From: Candidatus Melainabacteria bacterium
Lineage (GTDB): Bacteria > Cyanobacteriota > Vampirovibrionia > 2-02-FULL-35-15
DNA length: 39,527 nt
Assembly (NCBI GenBank): GCA_016193285.1
Contig: JACPSL010000019.1
Span: forward strand, 1-39,527
Reading direction: 5' to 3'
The notes under the pieces were generated by a model, which had not been told where the DNA came from, made no database searches, and was given only the letters and a program-made list of their open reading frames with translations. A program made the position numbers and the translations under genes. Positions within the stretch are counted from its first letter, which is position 1; each line of letters opens with the position of its first letter. This document shows, one piece after another, positions 3,652 to 34,269 of the stretch.

Positions 3652-5712
3652 TCAGAATCTTTCACCTAATCCAAAATTAAACCTTCCAAATATATTTTTA
3701 CTATGCCATAAAGTTCTCATAAATGGTATACCATAATCAATTCTAATTGATCCAAGCATTGGAACATTTGCTCTAAGTCCAATACCTGTTGACAATGCAG
3801 TATCTAATCTGTTAAACAATCTGTTTATCCTGCTATTACCTCCTACATAACCTAAATCAGTAAAGAAAACAAGTTTTAAATTTTGACCAAGTGGTGTATT
3901 TTGAAAACCCGGTATAGTATCTAACAAAGGTGTTCTAATTTCAGCACTTGCAAGTAAGCTCCTTGAACCAATCCCTAAATCTGAAAAAGATCTGTAACCT
4001 CTAACTCCATAATAACCACCAGCTTTAAATTGATTGTACATTGGGATATCACCTAACAATCTCGAGGAGCCTTGTAAATTAAATGCAAGTGTTGTTTTTT
4101 GTCCTACTGGAATATATCGTCTTAAATCAACTCCAAGCTTTGTAAAACTACCATTTCCAATACCAATTGCTTGACCAAAATTAATTTTATTGTAAGAACC
4201 TTTTTTAGGATCTAATAAGTTGTCCCGGCTGTCAAATGCAAGTGTTGGACTAAAACTAAGATATCTTCCATCTTGTAATTGTTCTTCCCTGATTTTTTTT
4301 GCAAGCTCACCTGCTTGTGCTTTTTGTACTGATAATTCATGCTCAGAGATTGATTGCCCAGGTTTAAAAATATTTTTCTCAGTAATCCCACCTAAAAGCT
4401 TTCCATCATCAACATTTACTAGCTGATCTGTTAAAAAGTCAGTTGCTTGTGAACCATATTCTTTTAAGTCAACACTTTCTCCACTTAAATCAAAACCACC
4501 CAGCAAGTTCATACCAAGCGGTCTTGTTAAAGAAACTCCTAAACCAATATTTTTTTCCTGAGCCAAGTCAACCAAGTAACTATTAAATGTATAACCATGA
4601 GTAAAAAAGCTAACAGAATTATTTGTACCTAAAAAGTTAGGATCCAAATACCTTGCTTCAACTTGAGCTGTTTTTCTGTCTGCTAAGAATCTTTGATTAA
4701 TAATTGTGTTAGCTAAAATCCCTGTGCCAAACTGAGTATTAAGAGAAACACTTTTTCCTTCTCCAAAAAGATTATTATTACTAAATCCAAAGTTAGCAAA
4801 TACCCCATTTAAAGTATTTACCCCGCCACCAAAACCAAATGAAGTATTTCTTTTTTCTTCAACTTCAATACTTAAATCATATTTTCCTGGATTTTCTTTT
4901 GATGAAGTAAGTGTTCTGCGTACATCGTTAAATAATCCTGTGCCTTGAAGAGCTCTAAAGTCTTGAACTAATAAAATCTCATTGTAAGTTTCACCCCCTC
5001 TTAAGTTAGGAGTAAATCTCTTTATGTATTTTTCTTTTGTTTTTAAATTCCCTTTAATAACAACTTTATCTATGATTCCTTCGTTTAGGTTTATTGTTAA
5101 AGTACCGTCTGGATCAAGAGAAATATCACTAACTCTTGCTAAAACAAAACCACGTTCTCTGTATTTTCTTTCAATTAAATCTAATGCTTCTGATATCTTA
5201 GTTAAACTTTCTGGTAAACCAATTAAATCCTGAAAAGTTACTAAGAGTTCTTCAGAAGAAATTATTTTATTGCCAACAATTTGTACTCTTGAAATTGGAT
5301 TATTTTCTTCAATTCTAATTTTTAATAACACACCATCTTTTTCTTGCTCAGGATTTGCTTGAATACTGTCCCTGACAAAATAACCTAATCTGTCAATGGA
5401 CTCCAGATCATTTAAAACCTTATCTTTGTTAAATTCTGTGCCAACTTTAGAATCAATGGTATCTAATATTTGCTTTTCTGAAATTAATCTATTTCCTTGA
5501 ATTAAAACCTGCTTTATCAGGGCAGCCTGGTCTAAGTTTGCTTTTTCATTTTTACCACGTTCATCACTTTGTTTTAATTTATTAAATAAAGAACCAATAT
5601 TTGAAAACCCTGACTGGGCATATGCTGGAATAAATAGCTGAAAAAGAAAGCTATTAATTAATAAACAACTTAGAACTCCAGACAACCATTGATTTTTTTT
5701 TGTAATATTCAT
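3652..5712 (-). CDS. bamA: Outer-membrane protein assembly factor BamA/Omp85
   Basis: This is the central barrel that folds and inserts outer-membrane proteins. The ATG at 5712 gives a clean signal peptide (MNITKKNQWLSG...AYAQSG), so I prefer it to the TTG at 5748. About three POTRA domains follow (roughly residues 65-300), as in cyanobacterial Omp85. A 16-strand-type barrel then carries the GVRGYR motif of the family's loop 6, and a C-terminal aromatic end (GLGERF) acts as an assembly signal. Length is about 686 residues. It is first in the bamA-skp-lpxD-wecB operon, with an extended -10 promoter candidate just upstream. No strong ribosome-binding site precedes either start. Confidence 0.93.
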   Translation of the reverse strand: MNITKKNQWLSGVLSCLLINSFLFQLFIPAYAQSGFSNIGSLFNKLKQSDERGKNEKANLDQAALIKQVLIQGNRLISEKQILDTIDSKVGTEFNKDKVLNDLESIDRLGYFVRDSIQANPEQEKDGVLLKIRIEENNPISRVQIVGNKIISSEELLVTFQDLIGLPESLTKISEALDLIERKYRERGFVLARVSDISLDPDGTLTINLNEGIIDKVVIKGNLKTKEKYIKRFTPNLRGGETYNEILLVQDFRALQGTGLFNDVRRTLTSSKENPGKYDLSIEVEEKRNTSFGFGGGVNTLNGVFANFGFSNNNLFGEGKSVSLNTQFGTGILANTIINQRFLADRKTAQVEARYLDPNFLGTNNSVSFFTHGYTFNSYLVDLAQEKNIGLGVSLTRPLGMNLLGGFDLSGESVDLKEYGSQATDFLTDQLVNVDDGKLLGGITEKNIFKPGQSISEHELSVQKAQAGELAKKIREEQLQDGRYLSFSPTLAFDSRDNLLDPKKGSYNKINFGQAIGIGNGSFTKLGVDLRRYIPVGQKTTLAFNLQGSSRLLGDIPMYNQFKAGGYYGVRGYRSFSDLGIGSRSLLASAEIRTPLLDTIPGFQNTPLGQNLKLVFFTDLGYVGGNSRINRLFNRLDTALSTGIGLRANVPMLGSIRIDYGIPFMRTLWHSKNIFGRFNFGLGERF

Positions 5713-30032: not shown

Positions 30033-31508
30033 TTAATCAACAACATCAATTATTCCTTGTGGATTTATTTCTTTACTATGTTTGTTTAATACAATTAGTG
30101 CAGAATATACAGCTAATATTATTTCTAATCTCATAGGACCATTAGATACTATAGCTACTTCTTCATCAATATCTGTAGCTTTGTATATTTCTTTTGTTAG
30201 TAAAACATTTAAGTCTGTTAATAAAGGAGGGTATTCAAACAAAGTCATACTTTCAGTTATAGCTCTTTCTAGCTCGTTTACTATATCTTTATTATTACTG
30301 GATGTTTCTATATTAAAACTAAATTCATCTTTGTTATTAAGCTGAAATTTAAGTAAAAATCTTCCTGTAGTTTTAGATACATAATAAATTTCACATGAAG
30401 CTACTACTGCTTCATAAACATCTTTTGTTTTAGGATCTTTTTTCTTCCACTTGGTTACAAAATCAATATCTTTCCTAACATATGGAAGTGGTAACGGGTA
30501 GTAAAGTAAAACTAATGGTAAAAGCACAGGATAATTTTCTTGATTCAACAATTGAGTAAAAGAAGAAATAGCACTATTAATATCCTTGTCTTGTCCAAGA
30601 CTTCGTTCTTGGACAAATTTTAATCTTTGCATAAAAAACAAATTAAAATCTTTGTCGTTTATTTCAAGTTTATCTTTAACTTCCTTTGCAAACAATCTTA
30701 AACATTCAGGAAACTCACGAGGTAAAGCAAATAACTGGCAAAGGCATTTTACTTTTGTTAAATCTACCTTGCTTAATTTAATTAATTCAAGAGGGAGAGG
30801 TGGTAAAAGTTTTTCCTCATAAGGATTGTCTTGCTTACCAGAGTTTTCTTCTTTTTTTAAGGAAGGACCAAGCTTTTTAAAATTACAAATATTTACTAAA
30901 AGTTCTGTGTTGCTATAACCTGATTGTTCTGGTGGAGAAAATATATGTGACAAAATAATTAGATTTTTATTTCTATTTTTACTTTCAGTACCACTGTCAA
31001 AGCCTTGGTAATTTTGTCTTAAAAATCCTTTAATACCAATATTTGTAGCTCTAAGTTCCTTAGCTTCAGTTTCTAGCTTTGCAAAGTTTTTATTATTATG
31101 TTCACTAATCCATGATTTTAATGACATATTTGGAACACCTGCATAAGCAGGCAGATCACTTGGGCCATGAAATTCAAGCTGAGAAGGTGAAGGTAAAGCC
31201 TGAGGATTTTTATTAAGATCAACTCTTACATCCATAGTTAATTTATTGTGGATTAAGGTTGCATTATTTAATACAGATTGATTTAGCAATGGACTTTCCT
31301 GAACTGGTTGGTTAATCAATACATTTGAATTAGTGTTTATCAGGCTTTCTCTAGAAGTGGTTTGAGTATCTTTAATATTCTTTACAACTTGATCTATTGG
31401 TTTATTGTCTTGTTGTTGATTTAAATTATTACTCTCGTTTCCCTTTGACAAATAGCCCTTTAGGCCTTGTAATAAATTCATTGATAAATTACTTTCTAAT
31501 CCAGACAT
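30033..31508 (-). CDS. Unknown protein of the flhB/sigma-28 operon, possibly FliK-like
   Basis: This 491-residue protein has no signal peptide. The first ~130 residues are Asn/Gln/Ser-rich and probably disordered. The C-terminal ~170 residues look folded: after ENYPVLLPLVLLYYPLPLPYV comes a strand-rich segment, SCEIYYVSKTTGRFLLKFQ and NKDEFSFNIETSSNNKDIVNEL, then helices. A disordered N-terminus with a strand-turn-strand C-terminal domain, downstream of flhB, recalls the hook-length regulator FliK, whose C-domain acts on FlhB. The likeness is architectural; no diagnostic motif is clear. Residues about 298-306 fall in a 26-base hairpin. It follows the sigma factor gene by 35 bases. Confidence 0.4.
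   Translation of the reverse strand: MSGLESNLSMNLLQGLKGYLSKGNESNNLNQQQDNKPIDQVVKNIKDTQTTSRESLINTNSNVLINQPVQESPLLNQSVLNNATLIHNKLTMDVRVDLNKNPQALPSPSQLEFHGPSDLPAYAGVPNMSLKSWISEHNNKNFAKLETEAKELRATNIGIKGFLRQNYQGFDSGTESKNRNKNLIILSHIFSPPEQSGYSNTELLVNICNFKKLGPSLKKEENSGKQDNPYEEKLLPPLPLELIKLSKVDLTKVKCLCQLFALPREFPECLRLFAKEVKDKLEINDKDFNLFFMQRLKFVQERSLGQDKDINSAISSFTQLLNQENYPVLLPLVLLYYPLPLPYVRKDIDFVTKWKKKDPKTKDVYEAVVASCEIYYVSKTTGRFLLKFQLNNKDEFSFNIETSSNNKDIVNELERAITESMTLFEYPPLLTDLNVLLTKEIYKATDIDEEVAIVSNGPMRLEIILAVYSALIVLNKHSKEINPQGIIDVVD
30591..30616. repeat. 26-base hairpin inside the 491-residue gene
   Basis: TTGTCCAAGA (30591-30600) and TCTTGGACAA (30607-30616) form a 10-bp stem around a 6-base loop, CTTCGT. 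It lies in coding sequence and lacks the GTAG terminus of the other palindromes, so it may be an unrelated element or chance. Confidence 0.55.
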
Positions 31509-31543
31509 TTTTACTTATCACTCACCTTACTTATTTCAACAGA

Positions 31544-32329
31544 TTACTCCCCAAACCCTTCTTGAGAAAGTGTTTGCCTAACTTTAGTAATTGCATCTTG
31601 AATCATATGAGAAACTCTAGATGGAGTTACCCCAAGCCATGACGCAATATCATTACCTCGTTTACCTTCATAAAAACGAAGTTCAATTACTCTTTTATGT
31701 TTTGGTGGTAGCTTATCAACTGCTCTTTTAACTGCTTCTTTAAGTTCCTGTAGTTCTAAACGAGCCAGCTCATCAGTTGTTAATTGTTCCTTGGTGGCTG
31801 TCTCTGTAGGAAAGTCTTCTAAATATAAAATAGTTTCAAATACTTTTTCATTAGCTTCTTCCTTGCTGAGATTGTTATAACTATCTTCTCCTGTTAATTC
31901 TTTTGGATATTCCCCTTCTTCTTCAAAAGCTTCTGAACTTTTATCCTTTAACTGATTTTGCTTTACTCCATACCAGTTGTACTTTACTCGTAATTCATCT
32001 TTTATGGCCCACTTTACTGCTTGTGCAATGTAACTTGAATTATATGTTTTTTTATTTGATATGACTTCATTTAGCAACTTATTTACTGTCAGAAGACCTA
32101 CATTAATAAGCTCACTGTATTCAGCTAAATATGACGGTATAGTTTTATATTCTTTTTTAACCACCATTTCTATAATTGGCAGATAACGCTTTAAGATATC
32201 ATCACTATTACCTGTTTCTGGCCCAATAAAAAGCTCCTTAGTTGACAAAGGAGGCTTTTCTTTTCCTAAACCTAAGAAATCTTTATTTACTTCTGAAGTT
32301 CTTTGAATATTTTCTTTGCTTTTTACCAT
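31544..32329 (-). CDS. Sigma-70 family factor, FliA/WhiG (sigma-28) type
   Basis: The 261-residue protein has region 2 near residues 48-118 (YLPIIEMVVKKEYKTIPSYL, ELINVGLLTVNKLL, YIAQAVKWAIKDELR), with the DELR end typical of FliA/WhiG factors. Region 4 is near residues 205-255 (AVDKLPPKHKRVIELRFYEG, IASWLGVTPSRVSHMIQDA), a helix-turn-helix for -35 binding. Between them is an acidic linker with weak region 3 likeness. It sits between flhB and a FliK-like gene, with a sigma-28-like promoter upstream of the operon, consistent with control of flagellar genes and autoregulation. A non-flagellar WhiG-like role cannot be excluded. Confidence 0.85.
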   Translation of the reverse strand: MVKSKENIQRTSEVNKDFLGLGKEKPPLSTKELFIGPETGNSDDILKRYLPIIEMVVKKEYKTIPSYLAEYSELINVGLLTVNKLLNEVISNKKTYNSSYIAQAVKWAIKDELRVKYNWYGVKQNQLKDKSSEAFEEEGEYPKELTGEDSYNNLSKEEANEKVFETILYLEDFPTETATKEQLTTDELARLELQELKEAVKRAVDKLPPKHKRVIELRFYEGKRGNDIASWLGVTPSRVSHMIQDAITKVRQTLSQEGFGE

Positions 32330-32351
32330 TTTTTTATTTTAAACTTTTAAG

Positions 32352-33431
32352 TTAACGAAATTGTCCCTTTCCTCGTAATTGATAAATAAATATTAGTATT
32401 TCAGCAACAGCTCTATAAAGTTCAGGTGGAATTATCTGATTAACTCTAACTAGTCTAAACAAAGCTCTTGCTAAAGGAACGTTTTCTATGACTGGAATTC
32501 CAAATTGTTCTGCTATTTCAATAATTTGTAGTGCAATAAGTTCTGTACCTTTTGCAAGAATCCTAGGAGCTGAGTCCATTTCTGGTTCATACTTTAATGC
32601 CATAGCAATATGATCTGGATTTGTTACAACAAAATCTGCTTCCTGGACTTGAACCATCATTTGACCATAAGCTACTTGTTGTTGTTTTTGTCTTCTAATT
32701 GCTTTAATTAAAGGATCACCTTCAGTTTGCTTAAACTCATCTTTTAATTCTTTAAAAGTCATTTTCTGATCACTTAGATATTTCCATCGCTGAAATAAAT
32801 AATCAAGGATTGTTACCACAAGTAAAAAAATCATACTTCTTACAGTAAAGTCATAAAATAAATCACCTAATACATAGATACTACTTAGTTTATTATTTAC
32901 TTCAATTAAACTAAGCACTTCCTCCATATGCTTGTTAAAGGTTATATAAGCAATGTAACCTAAAACACCTACCTTAAATGCTGACTTAAGGAGTTCAAAC
33001 AAGGAACGTACATTAAAAATAATTTTTTTAAATCCTTCAAAAGGATTTAACTTTTCTAGCGAAAACTTCATTGTCTCTGTAGTAAAAATCGGACCTACCT
33101 GAAAAAATTCAACTGCTACTGCAGTAATTAAAAGTGCAAGCAATAGAGGTAACATAATAATTGCTAAACAATAAAAAGTATTATAAAAAATAAATCCATA
33201 GCCTATAGTTGATAAAGATCTATGCGGAATTTGATTCCATAAACCATTAAATAACCTCGAACAATTTTCCCAAATAAAACCTGCACTATAAAAAATAATA
33301 AAAAAACCAACAATAAAAGTAACAAGCTGGGTTAAGTCCCTGCTTTTAAAGACTTGACCTTTTTTATGTGCTTCTCTTAATTTATGTGGTGTTGCATCAA
33401 ACTGCTTATCACCAGCATTTTCTTCTGGCAT
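32352..33431 (-). CDS. flhB: FlhB-family flagellar/type III export switch protein
   Basis: Residues 5-30 (DKQFDATPHKLREAHKKGQV) are the FlhB/YscU N-terminus; four hydrophobic helices follow up to about residue 215. The cytoplasmic domain contains the self-cleavage site, here VVTNPDHIAMALKYEPE in place of the usual NPTH, then PLARALFRLVRVNQIIPPELYRAVAEIL. FlhB sets substrate class during flagellar export, switching after cleavage between Asn and Pro. Length 359 is normal. It is first in an operon with the sigma factor and the FliK-like gene. No other export-gate gene (fliP, fliQ, fliR, flhA) is in the window. Confidence 0.92.
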   Translation of the reverse strand: MPEENAGDKQFDATPHKLREAHKKGQVFKSRDLTQLVTFIVGFFIIFYSAGFIWENCSRLFNGLWNQIPHRSLSTIGYGFIFYNTFYCLAIIMLPLLLALLITAVAVEFFQVGPIFTTETMKFSLEKLNPFEGFKKIIFNVRSLFELLKSAFKVGVLGYIAYITFNKHMEEVLSLIEVNNKLSSIYVLGDLFYDFTVRSMIFLLVVTILDYLFQRWKYLSDQKMTFKELKDEFKQTEGDPLIKAIRRQKQQQVAYGQMMVQVQEADFVVTNPDHIAMALKYEPEMDSAPRILAKGTELIALQIIEIAEQFGIPVIENVPLARALFRLVRVNQIIPPELYRAVAEILIFIYQLRGKGQFR

Positions 33432-33442
33432 TTTTTACATCC

Positions 33443-33500
33443 TATTTCCTAATTTCTGATTCTCTGATTCTCTGTTCCTCCAATTCTCTAAATTCGCCTC
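33443..33500. repeat. Degenerate 7-8 bp word array upstream of flhB
   Basis: Words such as CTAATTT, CTGATTC, TCTGATT and CCAATTCTC run nearly head to tail. Related words occur around 14540-14561, 13490-13520 and 21818-21860. This resembles cyanobacterial heptanucleotide STRR arrays in decayed form. It lies in the leader between the sigma-28-like promoter and the flhB start. Confidence 0.5.
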
Positions 33501-33574
33501 TCTAGAATAAAGTTAAATAGAGAAAGATATCGTTTGGTTAAATAGTAAAGGTTTTTAACCATACTTTAATATAC

Positions 33575-33601
33575 CCATCGGCTTTTCTTTACCAGGTCTT
33601 A
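33575..33601 (-). promoter_or_regulatory. Sigma-28-like promoter upstream of flhB operon
   Basis: On the minus strand TAAGACCT (33601-33594), exactly 11 bases, then GCCGATGG (33582-33575) match the flagellar consensus TAAAGTTT-N11-GCCGATAA: four of eight at -35, six of eight at -10, with exact spacing. Transcription would start near 33567 with a ~135-base leader. The operon encodes a sigma-28-type factor, so autoregulation is plausible. On the plus strand TAAAGGTT lies nearby but lacks a matching -10. Confidence 0.45.
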
Positions 33602-33639
33602 GTACTTATTCATAGAATTAGGGTTAACATATTTATATT

Positions 33640-34269
33640 ATGGGACTACAAAATCATACAACAGGATCTTTATTTCCACCACCAAAACCGGCCGGTGCGT
33701 CTGATGCTGATCCACAAAAAACTCAAAGTACACAGGCCATAAACCAACTTGAAAAAGTAAGTAGGATCCCTACTCAACAAGGTCAAACAACAACAAGCTC
33801 AGTACCAGTTAAATCTCCAGACAGTTTTGGAAGCACCAATAACATACCTAGAACAAGAACATTACCACCTGAGCAAACAGCATTTATTAACAATTCCATT
33901 GAAAAAGCAAAAAAAGACTCTTCTAATTACTCAATTGATGACGATGTCTTTGCTACAGCTGCAGAAATTATAGAGTTAGCTCTTACAAATAAAGGAGTTG
34001 TGGGTTTAGAAAAATTGTCCTCTATGGCTTGGGAAGTAGTACGAGATCCAAAAAAACGAAGAGATTTACTTGGTGCAGCACAAACAATTGTAGATAACTC
34101 AATTGGTGAATTTGAAAAAAATCCATCAAAAGAAAAATCTAACGAAGCTAATCCACGTTTTGCTTTTGTGAATAGTACACTTGATTTTGAAAAATCAGTC
34201 AGAGCAATGGATTTAGAATTATCAAAAGAACGATTTAGCTATGGCAATAATACCCTAGCTTATGCATAA
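33640..34269 (+). CDS. Unknown cytoplasmic protein divergent from flhB
   Basis: The 209-residue protein has a Pro/Gln/Thr-rich, probably disordered first half (residues 1-95) and a helical segment (ATAAEIIELALTNKGVVGLEKLSSMAWEVVRD, near 105-140). There is no signal peptide, membrane helix or recognised domain. It is transcribed away from flhB with a 208-base shared upstream region and converges on rsmA with a 10-base overlap. Its position suggests a link to the flagellar or export genes, for example a regulator or substrate, but this is inference from location only. Confidence 0.6.
   Translation: MGLQNHTTGSLFPPPKPAGASDADPQKTQSTQAINQLEKVSRIPTQQGQTTTSSVPVKSPDSFGSTNNIPRTRTLPPEQTAFINNSIEKAKKDSSNYSIDDDVFATAAEIIELALTNKGVVGLEKLSSMAWEVVRDPKKRRDLLGAAQTIVDNSIGEFEKNPSKEKSNEANPRFAFVNSTLDFEKSVRAMDLELSKERFSYGNNTLAYA

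Follow-up and report, generated by a model that had tools for sequence, protein, structure and literature searches.

A three-gene operon in the genome of a Candidatus Melainabacteria bacterium is probably the FlhB/sigma-factor node of an export apparatus that is related to the flagellum but is not one, and the other genes of which are dispersed. As far as sequence comparison can tell, this is a rod-bearing apparatus without a detectable filament or FliG motor domain, and it is conserved across much of the class.

The operon lies in the window, the whole stretch of 39,527 nucleotides that was analysed. The genome of the window, G000, is a Melainabacteria assembly of 1.81 Mb in 39 contigs, with a completeness of 96%. 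Melainabacteria are relatives of Cyanobacteria that do not photosynthesise. The public contigs related to this genome belong to Candidatus Melainabacteria, and one carries the name Caenarcanales. Families within the class are labelled f1 to f8, where f1 is the family of G000 itself and comprises 11 genomes; the survey set consisted of G000 and 25 relatives (26 genomes).

The flhB operon

The locus has the following features:

30033-31508, minus strand: P491 (491 aa), third gene of the operon, specific to f1; 45-52% identity in nine relatives
31544-32329, minus strand: sigma factor of FliA/WhiG-like type; region 4 (PF04545, E = 5.7e-9), TIGR02479 at 70.4 bits
32352-33431, minus strand: flhB of the non-flagellar clade, by tree; 359 aa, Pfam Bac_export_2 (PF01312, E = 2.1e-112)
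33577-33601, minus strand: TAAG-N15-GCCGAT, proposed as a sigma-28-like promoter; overlaps the conserved P209 element
33587-33621, plus strand: promoter-like element of P209 (CTTTACC-N16-(C)CATAAAC-like), conserved upstream of the P209 position
33640-34269, plus strand: P209, a divergent, fast-evolving protein; relatives have an ORF with the same place and orientation

On the minus strand, 22 nt separate flhB from the sigma factor gene that follows it, and a further 35 nt lie between this gene and P491; P209 is transcribed divergently from this run (33640-34269, plus strand). The window and nine related Melainabacteria loci all have the order flhB-sigma-P491, an agreement well beyond chance. 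The operon and the divergent gene beside it had both been put forward in a preliminary description of the locus, and both stand. Most related loci whose contig extends far enough also share the wider neighbourhood, with xerC/D-like and hemL genes downstream of P491 and with ksgA, ispG and a TPR gene on the side of flhB; the exceptions are L005, which differs downstream, and L002, whose contig stops there. Among relatives, the differences in flhB and the sigma factor gene fall mostly at third codon positions, and in P491 the second codon positions are the least changed. Thus, all three genes encode constrained proteins.

FlhB is about 75% identical between the window and its relatives. It scores 346 bits with the flhB model and 328 bits with the SctU injectisome model (cut-off 358), each score lying under the cut-off of its own model. 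The canonical cleavage motif of FlhB is NPTH, and self-cleavage needs the N and P of this motif. Both residues are retained in the window protein, which has NPDH at residues 271-274 and no long C-terminal tail, and in its f1 relatives: the motif is NPDH or NPEH in all 10 f1 members read, with NPEH in two. In the FlhB proteins of three f6 genomes (L126, L127, and L131), an NPxH motif was not found by the pattern used.

Export genes elsewhere in the genome

Does flhB stand alone? No further flagellar Pfam match was found among the window proteins scanned, a subset of the window ORFs, and no stretch of window DNA matched the proteins of the rod/FliF/FliH cluster of relatives. The earlier statement that no other flagellar gene is present therefore holds for the window, as far as its ORFs were scanned, but not for the genome, where flhA-fliI, fliM/N-fliPQR, fliH, and fliJ-fliK lie elsewhere. 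A genome devoid of other export genes had been named in advance as an outcome that would speak against the preliminary description; several export loci were found in G000.

Contig C25 carries FlhA (E = 7.5e-225) and then FliI. Contig C18 carries a FliM/N-domain protein and an 88-aa protein followed by FliP, FliQ, and FliR, and about 10 kb from fliPQR it encodes FliJ, a FliK-like protein, and an FlgE/F/G-like protein. On contig C38, a 130-aa protein and FliH adjoin purL. Flagellar models outscore injectisome models for FlhA, FlhB, and FliI; FlhA reaches 596 bits with the SctV injectisome model (cut-off 692) and likewise stays under the flagellar cut-off. FliQ is usually about 90 aa long. The f1 copies read (among them L040:8665-9435, minus strand, on C18 of G000) have 241-256 aa, and the Pfam match covers residues 7-75 only.

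The FliF MS ring and the FlgB/C/F/G rod are present in the genomes of relatives. Their block encodes two FlgF/G-like proteins, a 251-aa protein, FlgB, FlgC, an SLT transglycosylase, FliE, and FliF, and then the 130-aa protein and FliH. In the G000 assembly FliF was not seen, and just one of the three FlgE/F/G-like proteins was found. Is FliF truly missing from this genome? LpxI precedes the fliF/rod block in three relatives, and in G000 contig C12 breaks off about 150 bases beyond it; the block is therefore probably unassembled and falls in an assembly gap, an explanation that has replaced a true absence of FliF. On C38 (L155:14524-17580) a penicillin amidase gene stands directly before the 130-aa gene, at the place of fliF in the relatives, so that a loss, a rearrangement, or an assembly misjoin in G000 is possible.

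Several proteins of these clusters have unusual features. The 251-aa protein (L018:6689-7444), encoded between the FlgG-like and FlgB genes, is rich in Gly, Asn, and Gln and has no Pfam match; it has counterparts in the clusters of relatives. The 130-aa protein (L018:11259-11657; L155:17158-17580) occupies the fliG position, between fliF and fliH. It is akin to the C-terminal part of proteins of 338-398 aa that are found at the same position in f3, f5, and f8 (hhalign 93%, E = 4e-7). The idea that it is a truncated FliG found no support (hhalign 6%), and no relation to FliG was detectable. Near the export clusters of other families there are proteins that start with MG(M/L)AASQAR or similar (L044:1586-2560 and 3871-4203; L022:4881-5210), and these are possible exported subunits.

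Two probable systems in one class

Flagellin (PF00669), FliG_C (PF01706), and FlgI (PF02119) occur in the same six of the 26 genomes (G012, G013, G017, G018, G022, and G023), and none of the three was detected in any of the 11 f1 genomes. The FlgI P ring is also missing from Gram-positive flagella. In each of the six flagellin-bearing genomes FliF, FliP, and FlhB are present twice; the other genomes with export genes have one of each, apart from G010, with two FliF-domain matches, and assemblies from which a gene is missing. Neither set is present in three genomes, which belong to f2 and f7. The non-flagellar set recurs in f1, f3, f4, f5, f6, and f8.

Trees separate six flagellar copies from 20-22 others, with support of 100/100 for FliP, 99 for FliF (a quick tree), and 100/99 for FlhB, where the window copy groups with the non-flagellar ones. 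The other copy from each of the six flagellin-bearing genomes clusters, in every one of the three trees, with the copies from f1. When the FliP of E. coli is included, it falls with the six flagellar copies against the 20 others (100/99). The flagellar member of each pair was assigned by this grouping and, in G012 and G022, also by a fliF gene that adjoins the gene for FliG. An export core and a rod thus occur in f1 without flagellin, FliG_C, or FlgI, and the trees of the paralogues are split, which argues for an apparatus distinct from the flagellum of the class. A distinct export system was one of two readings offered in the preliminary description, and it is the one supported by the 11 of 11 f1 genomes and by the phylogenetic separation of core and rod.

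Could these genes instead be the remnants of a lost flagellum, left over after deletion of the filament and motor genes and without a coherent function? Genome reduction or loss is the published explanation for the partial flagellar sets of Melainabacteria (Di Rienzi et al. 2013, PMC3787301; Soo et al. 2014, PMC4040986), and the non-detection of FliF and two rod proteins in the G000 assembly would fit it. However, FliF, FliP, and FlhB of the same type form a clade of their own and are second copies beside a flagellar set in six genomes, the f1 copies are intact and under constraint at the protein level, and the set is shared by the six families listed above. Decay of a flagellum is therefore quite unlikely. 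Soo et al. 2015 describe a complete flagellum in Vampirovibrio. The literature found, as far as its text was accessible and with preprints and most subscription journals outside its scope, held no report of a second system in Melainabacteria, Caenarcanum, or Vampirovibrionia.

It is very unlikely that the genes encode a core export complex for membrane nanotubes or similar structures, to which the rod genes would be incidental. FlhA, FlhB, and FliPQR are present, and such homologues have been reported in nanotube formation (in work cited in PMC9380563). By contrast, f1 has kept FliE, FlgB, FlgC, FlgF/G, the transglycosylase, and the FliK-like protein; a bare core would have no need of these.

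The sigma factor and the control region

The second gene of the operon had been described as a sigma-28-type factor. It is a sigma factor with a region 4, and FliA/WhiG is its best-scoring subfamily, but its 70.4 bits miss the cut-off of the FliA/WhiG model TIGR02479 (189.6). The protein is 65-74% identical in eight relatives. A homologue directly follows the non-flagellar flhB in f3 (two genomes) and f5 (three genomes), with E-values of about 1e-40 to 1e-43. Since the same type of flhB precedes the sigma factor in f1, f3, and f5, the factor is probably dedicated to the non-flagellar export system.

Which promoters serve the locus? A sigma-28-like promoter had been proposed for the operon, but the window has TAAG and not TAAA, and no TAAG-N15-GCCGAT-type site occurs upstream of flhB in eight relatives. 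Nor is a sigma-28-type site of the form TAAA-N15-GCCGATAA conserved at the flhB locus, where the comparison was made. A sigma-28 promoter driving the flhB operon was rejected, the site being present in the window but absent from the eight relatives. The other reading of the preliminary description was a regulatory hub serving a scattered flagellar regulon. The genes do lie at separate places, and it is plausible that the sigma factor is dedicated to them; the sigma-28 promoter is unsupported.

The window and nine relatives share the element that lies at 33587-33621 on the plus strand of the window, ahead of the P209 position; in the window and eight relatives, 18-51 nt separate it from the start of the gene at this position. 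The copy in L009 was left out of the motif model, yet it was detected. Across the family loci (520 kb) the model gave just two further weak matches, and 400 kb of random sequence yielded none. The element is read as the promoter of P209. Its use as a promoter for the whole regulon was rejected, as it is absent from every other apparatus locus examined.

P491 and P209

Both proteins had been described as unrecognised, and neither matches a Pfam, NCBIfam, or PHROGs family above cut-off. P491 is found in 11 of 11 f1 genomes and in none of 135 other sampled genomes of the class. Hydropathy indicates no transmembrane stretch. In a model of low confidence, residues 1-245 are predicted to be disordered and an alpha/beta domain lies near the C-terminus (about 368-477), the only part with a pLDDT of about 70-85. 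Sequence, PDB-sequence, profile, and fold comparisons returned no match, and the structure search with this model gave hits at chance level.

Is P491 the FliK of the system, acting in length control and switching? It is a neighbour of flhB, and a long disordered N-terminus before a predicted alpha/beta C-terminal domain is the layout that had suggested a likeness to FliK. However, the Flg_hook C-terminal domain is not matched, hhalign against FliK profiles gives at most 0.7%, and a match to Flg_hook is found for a separate gene, which belongs to the fliJ-fliK-flgE/G-like trio (E = 3.7e-6 in f5 and, weakly, E = 0.017 in f1). With no Pfam, PDB-sequence, or profile match to uphold the FliK-like layout and a FliK-like gene elsewhere in G000, this identity is unlikely and was rejected. 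Judged by its position only, the most likely role of P491 is that of a soluble protein working with the export gate, as a gatekeeper or a switch helper.

P209 of the window is 12-22% identical to the ORFs of relatives, and its homology to them is weak, resting on position, orientation, and the common upstream element. In three relatives (L005, L006, and L008) the P209 region consists of two ORFs, the second of which encodes a conserved 96-aa protein with a clear codon-position bias. The model of P209 is of low confidence overall, with a disordered N-terminus and helices within residues 77-199, mostly at pLDDT 70-86; a structure search with it gave chance-level matches only. A weak match to TyeA (E = 0.069) lies under the cut-off.

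That P209 is a FlgM-like exported anti-sigma factor of the adjacent sigma factor is doubtful. The gene has its own conserved element and diverges from the sigma factor operon, and helices are predicted after the disordered N-terminus; however, there is no match to Pfam FlgM at E <= 1 and no fold match, and in the flanks that were read in f3 and f5 the sigma factor has no P209 beside it. From position only, P209 is most likely a late exported product or a regulator of the sigma factor.

A proposed machine

How might such an apparatus work? The steps proposed here are inferred from the established flagellar homologues and applied to an observed gene content, phylogeny, and operon. The FliF membrane ring, the FlhA/FlhB/FliPQR gate, and a short rod would assemble, with FliH, FliI, and FliJ energising the gate. 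The rod would cross the peptidoglycan with the help of the transglycosylase. Since flagellin, FliG_C, and FlgI were not detected, it seems that neither a filament nor a FliG-type rotor would be added. FlhB might serve as the substrate switch together with the FliK-like protein, and the sigma factor could control part of the regulon, with P491 as a putative gate partner and P209 as a candidate late export product or sigma regulator.

The apparatus shares with the bacterial flagellum FlhA, FlhB, FliP/Q/R, FliH/I/J, FliF with its C-terminal domain, FliE, rod proteins of the FlgB/C/F/G type, and a FliK-like protein. It differs in that flagellin, the C-terminal motor domain of FliG, and the P ring were not detected, and in having a 130-aa protein at the place of fliG, its own sigma factor, P491, and a separate phylogeny. 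Injectisomes (non-flagellar type III secretion systems) have a homologous export gate and ATPase, and the motility parts searched for (flagellin, FliG_C, and FlgI) are likewise not found in the system described here; by contrast, its FlhA, FlhB, and FliI score higher with flagellar models, and its rod and FliF are of flagellar type.

The flagellar basal bodies of Buchnera aphidicola also keep the export gate, MS ring, and rod without flagellin and motor; they have been interpreted as a reduced flagellum, with a proposed role in secretion (PMC8109811). The Buchnera structure is thus seen as the reduced flagellum of one lineage, whereas the set in Melainabacteria spans several families and stands beside a flagellar set in six genomes. 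The partial flagellar sets noted earlier in Melainabacteria (PMC3787301, PMC4040986) probably comprise the same genes, read in those papers as reduced or lost flagella and here as a separate system. It is conceivable, although tentative, that this system represents a class-wide second lineage of flagellum-type secretion machines that predates the families, that it has a sigma factor of its own and a protein that replaces FliG, and that it delivers proteins to neighbouring cells or hosts through a short rod.

Partial sets counted as lost flagella have served arguments on ancestral motility, and this inference changes if they belong to a separate secretion machine. If the interpretation is true, export systems that are intact but lack the main motility parts would open the question of the kinship between flagellum and injectisome, and such systems would allow one to ask what a rod without a filament delivers.
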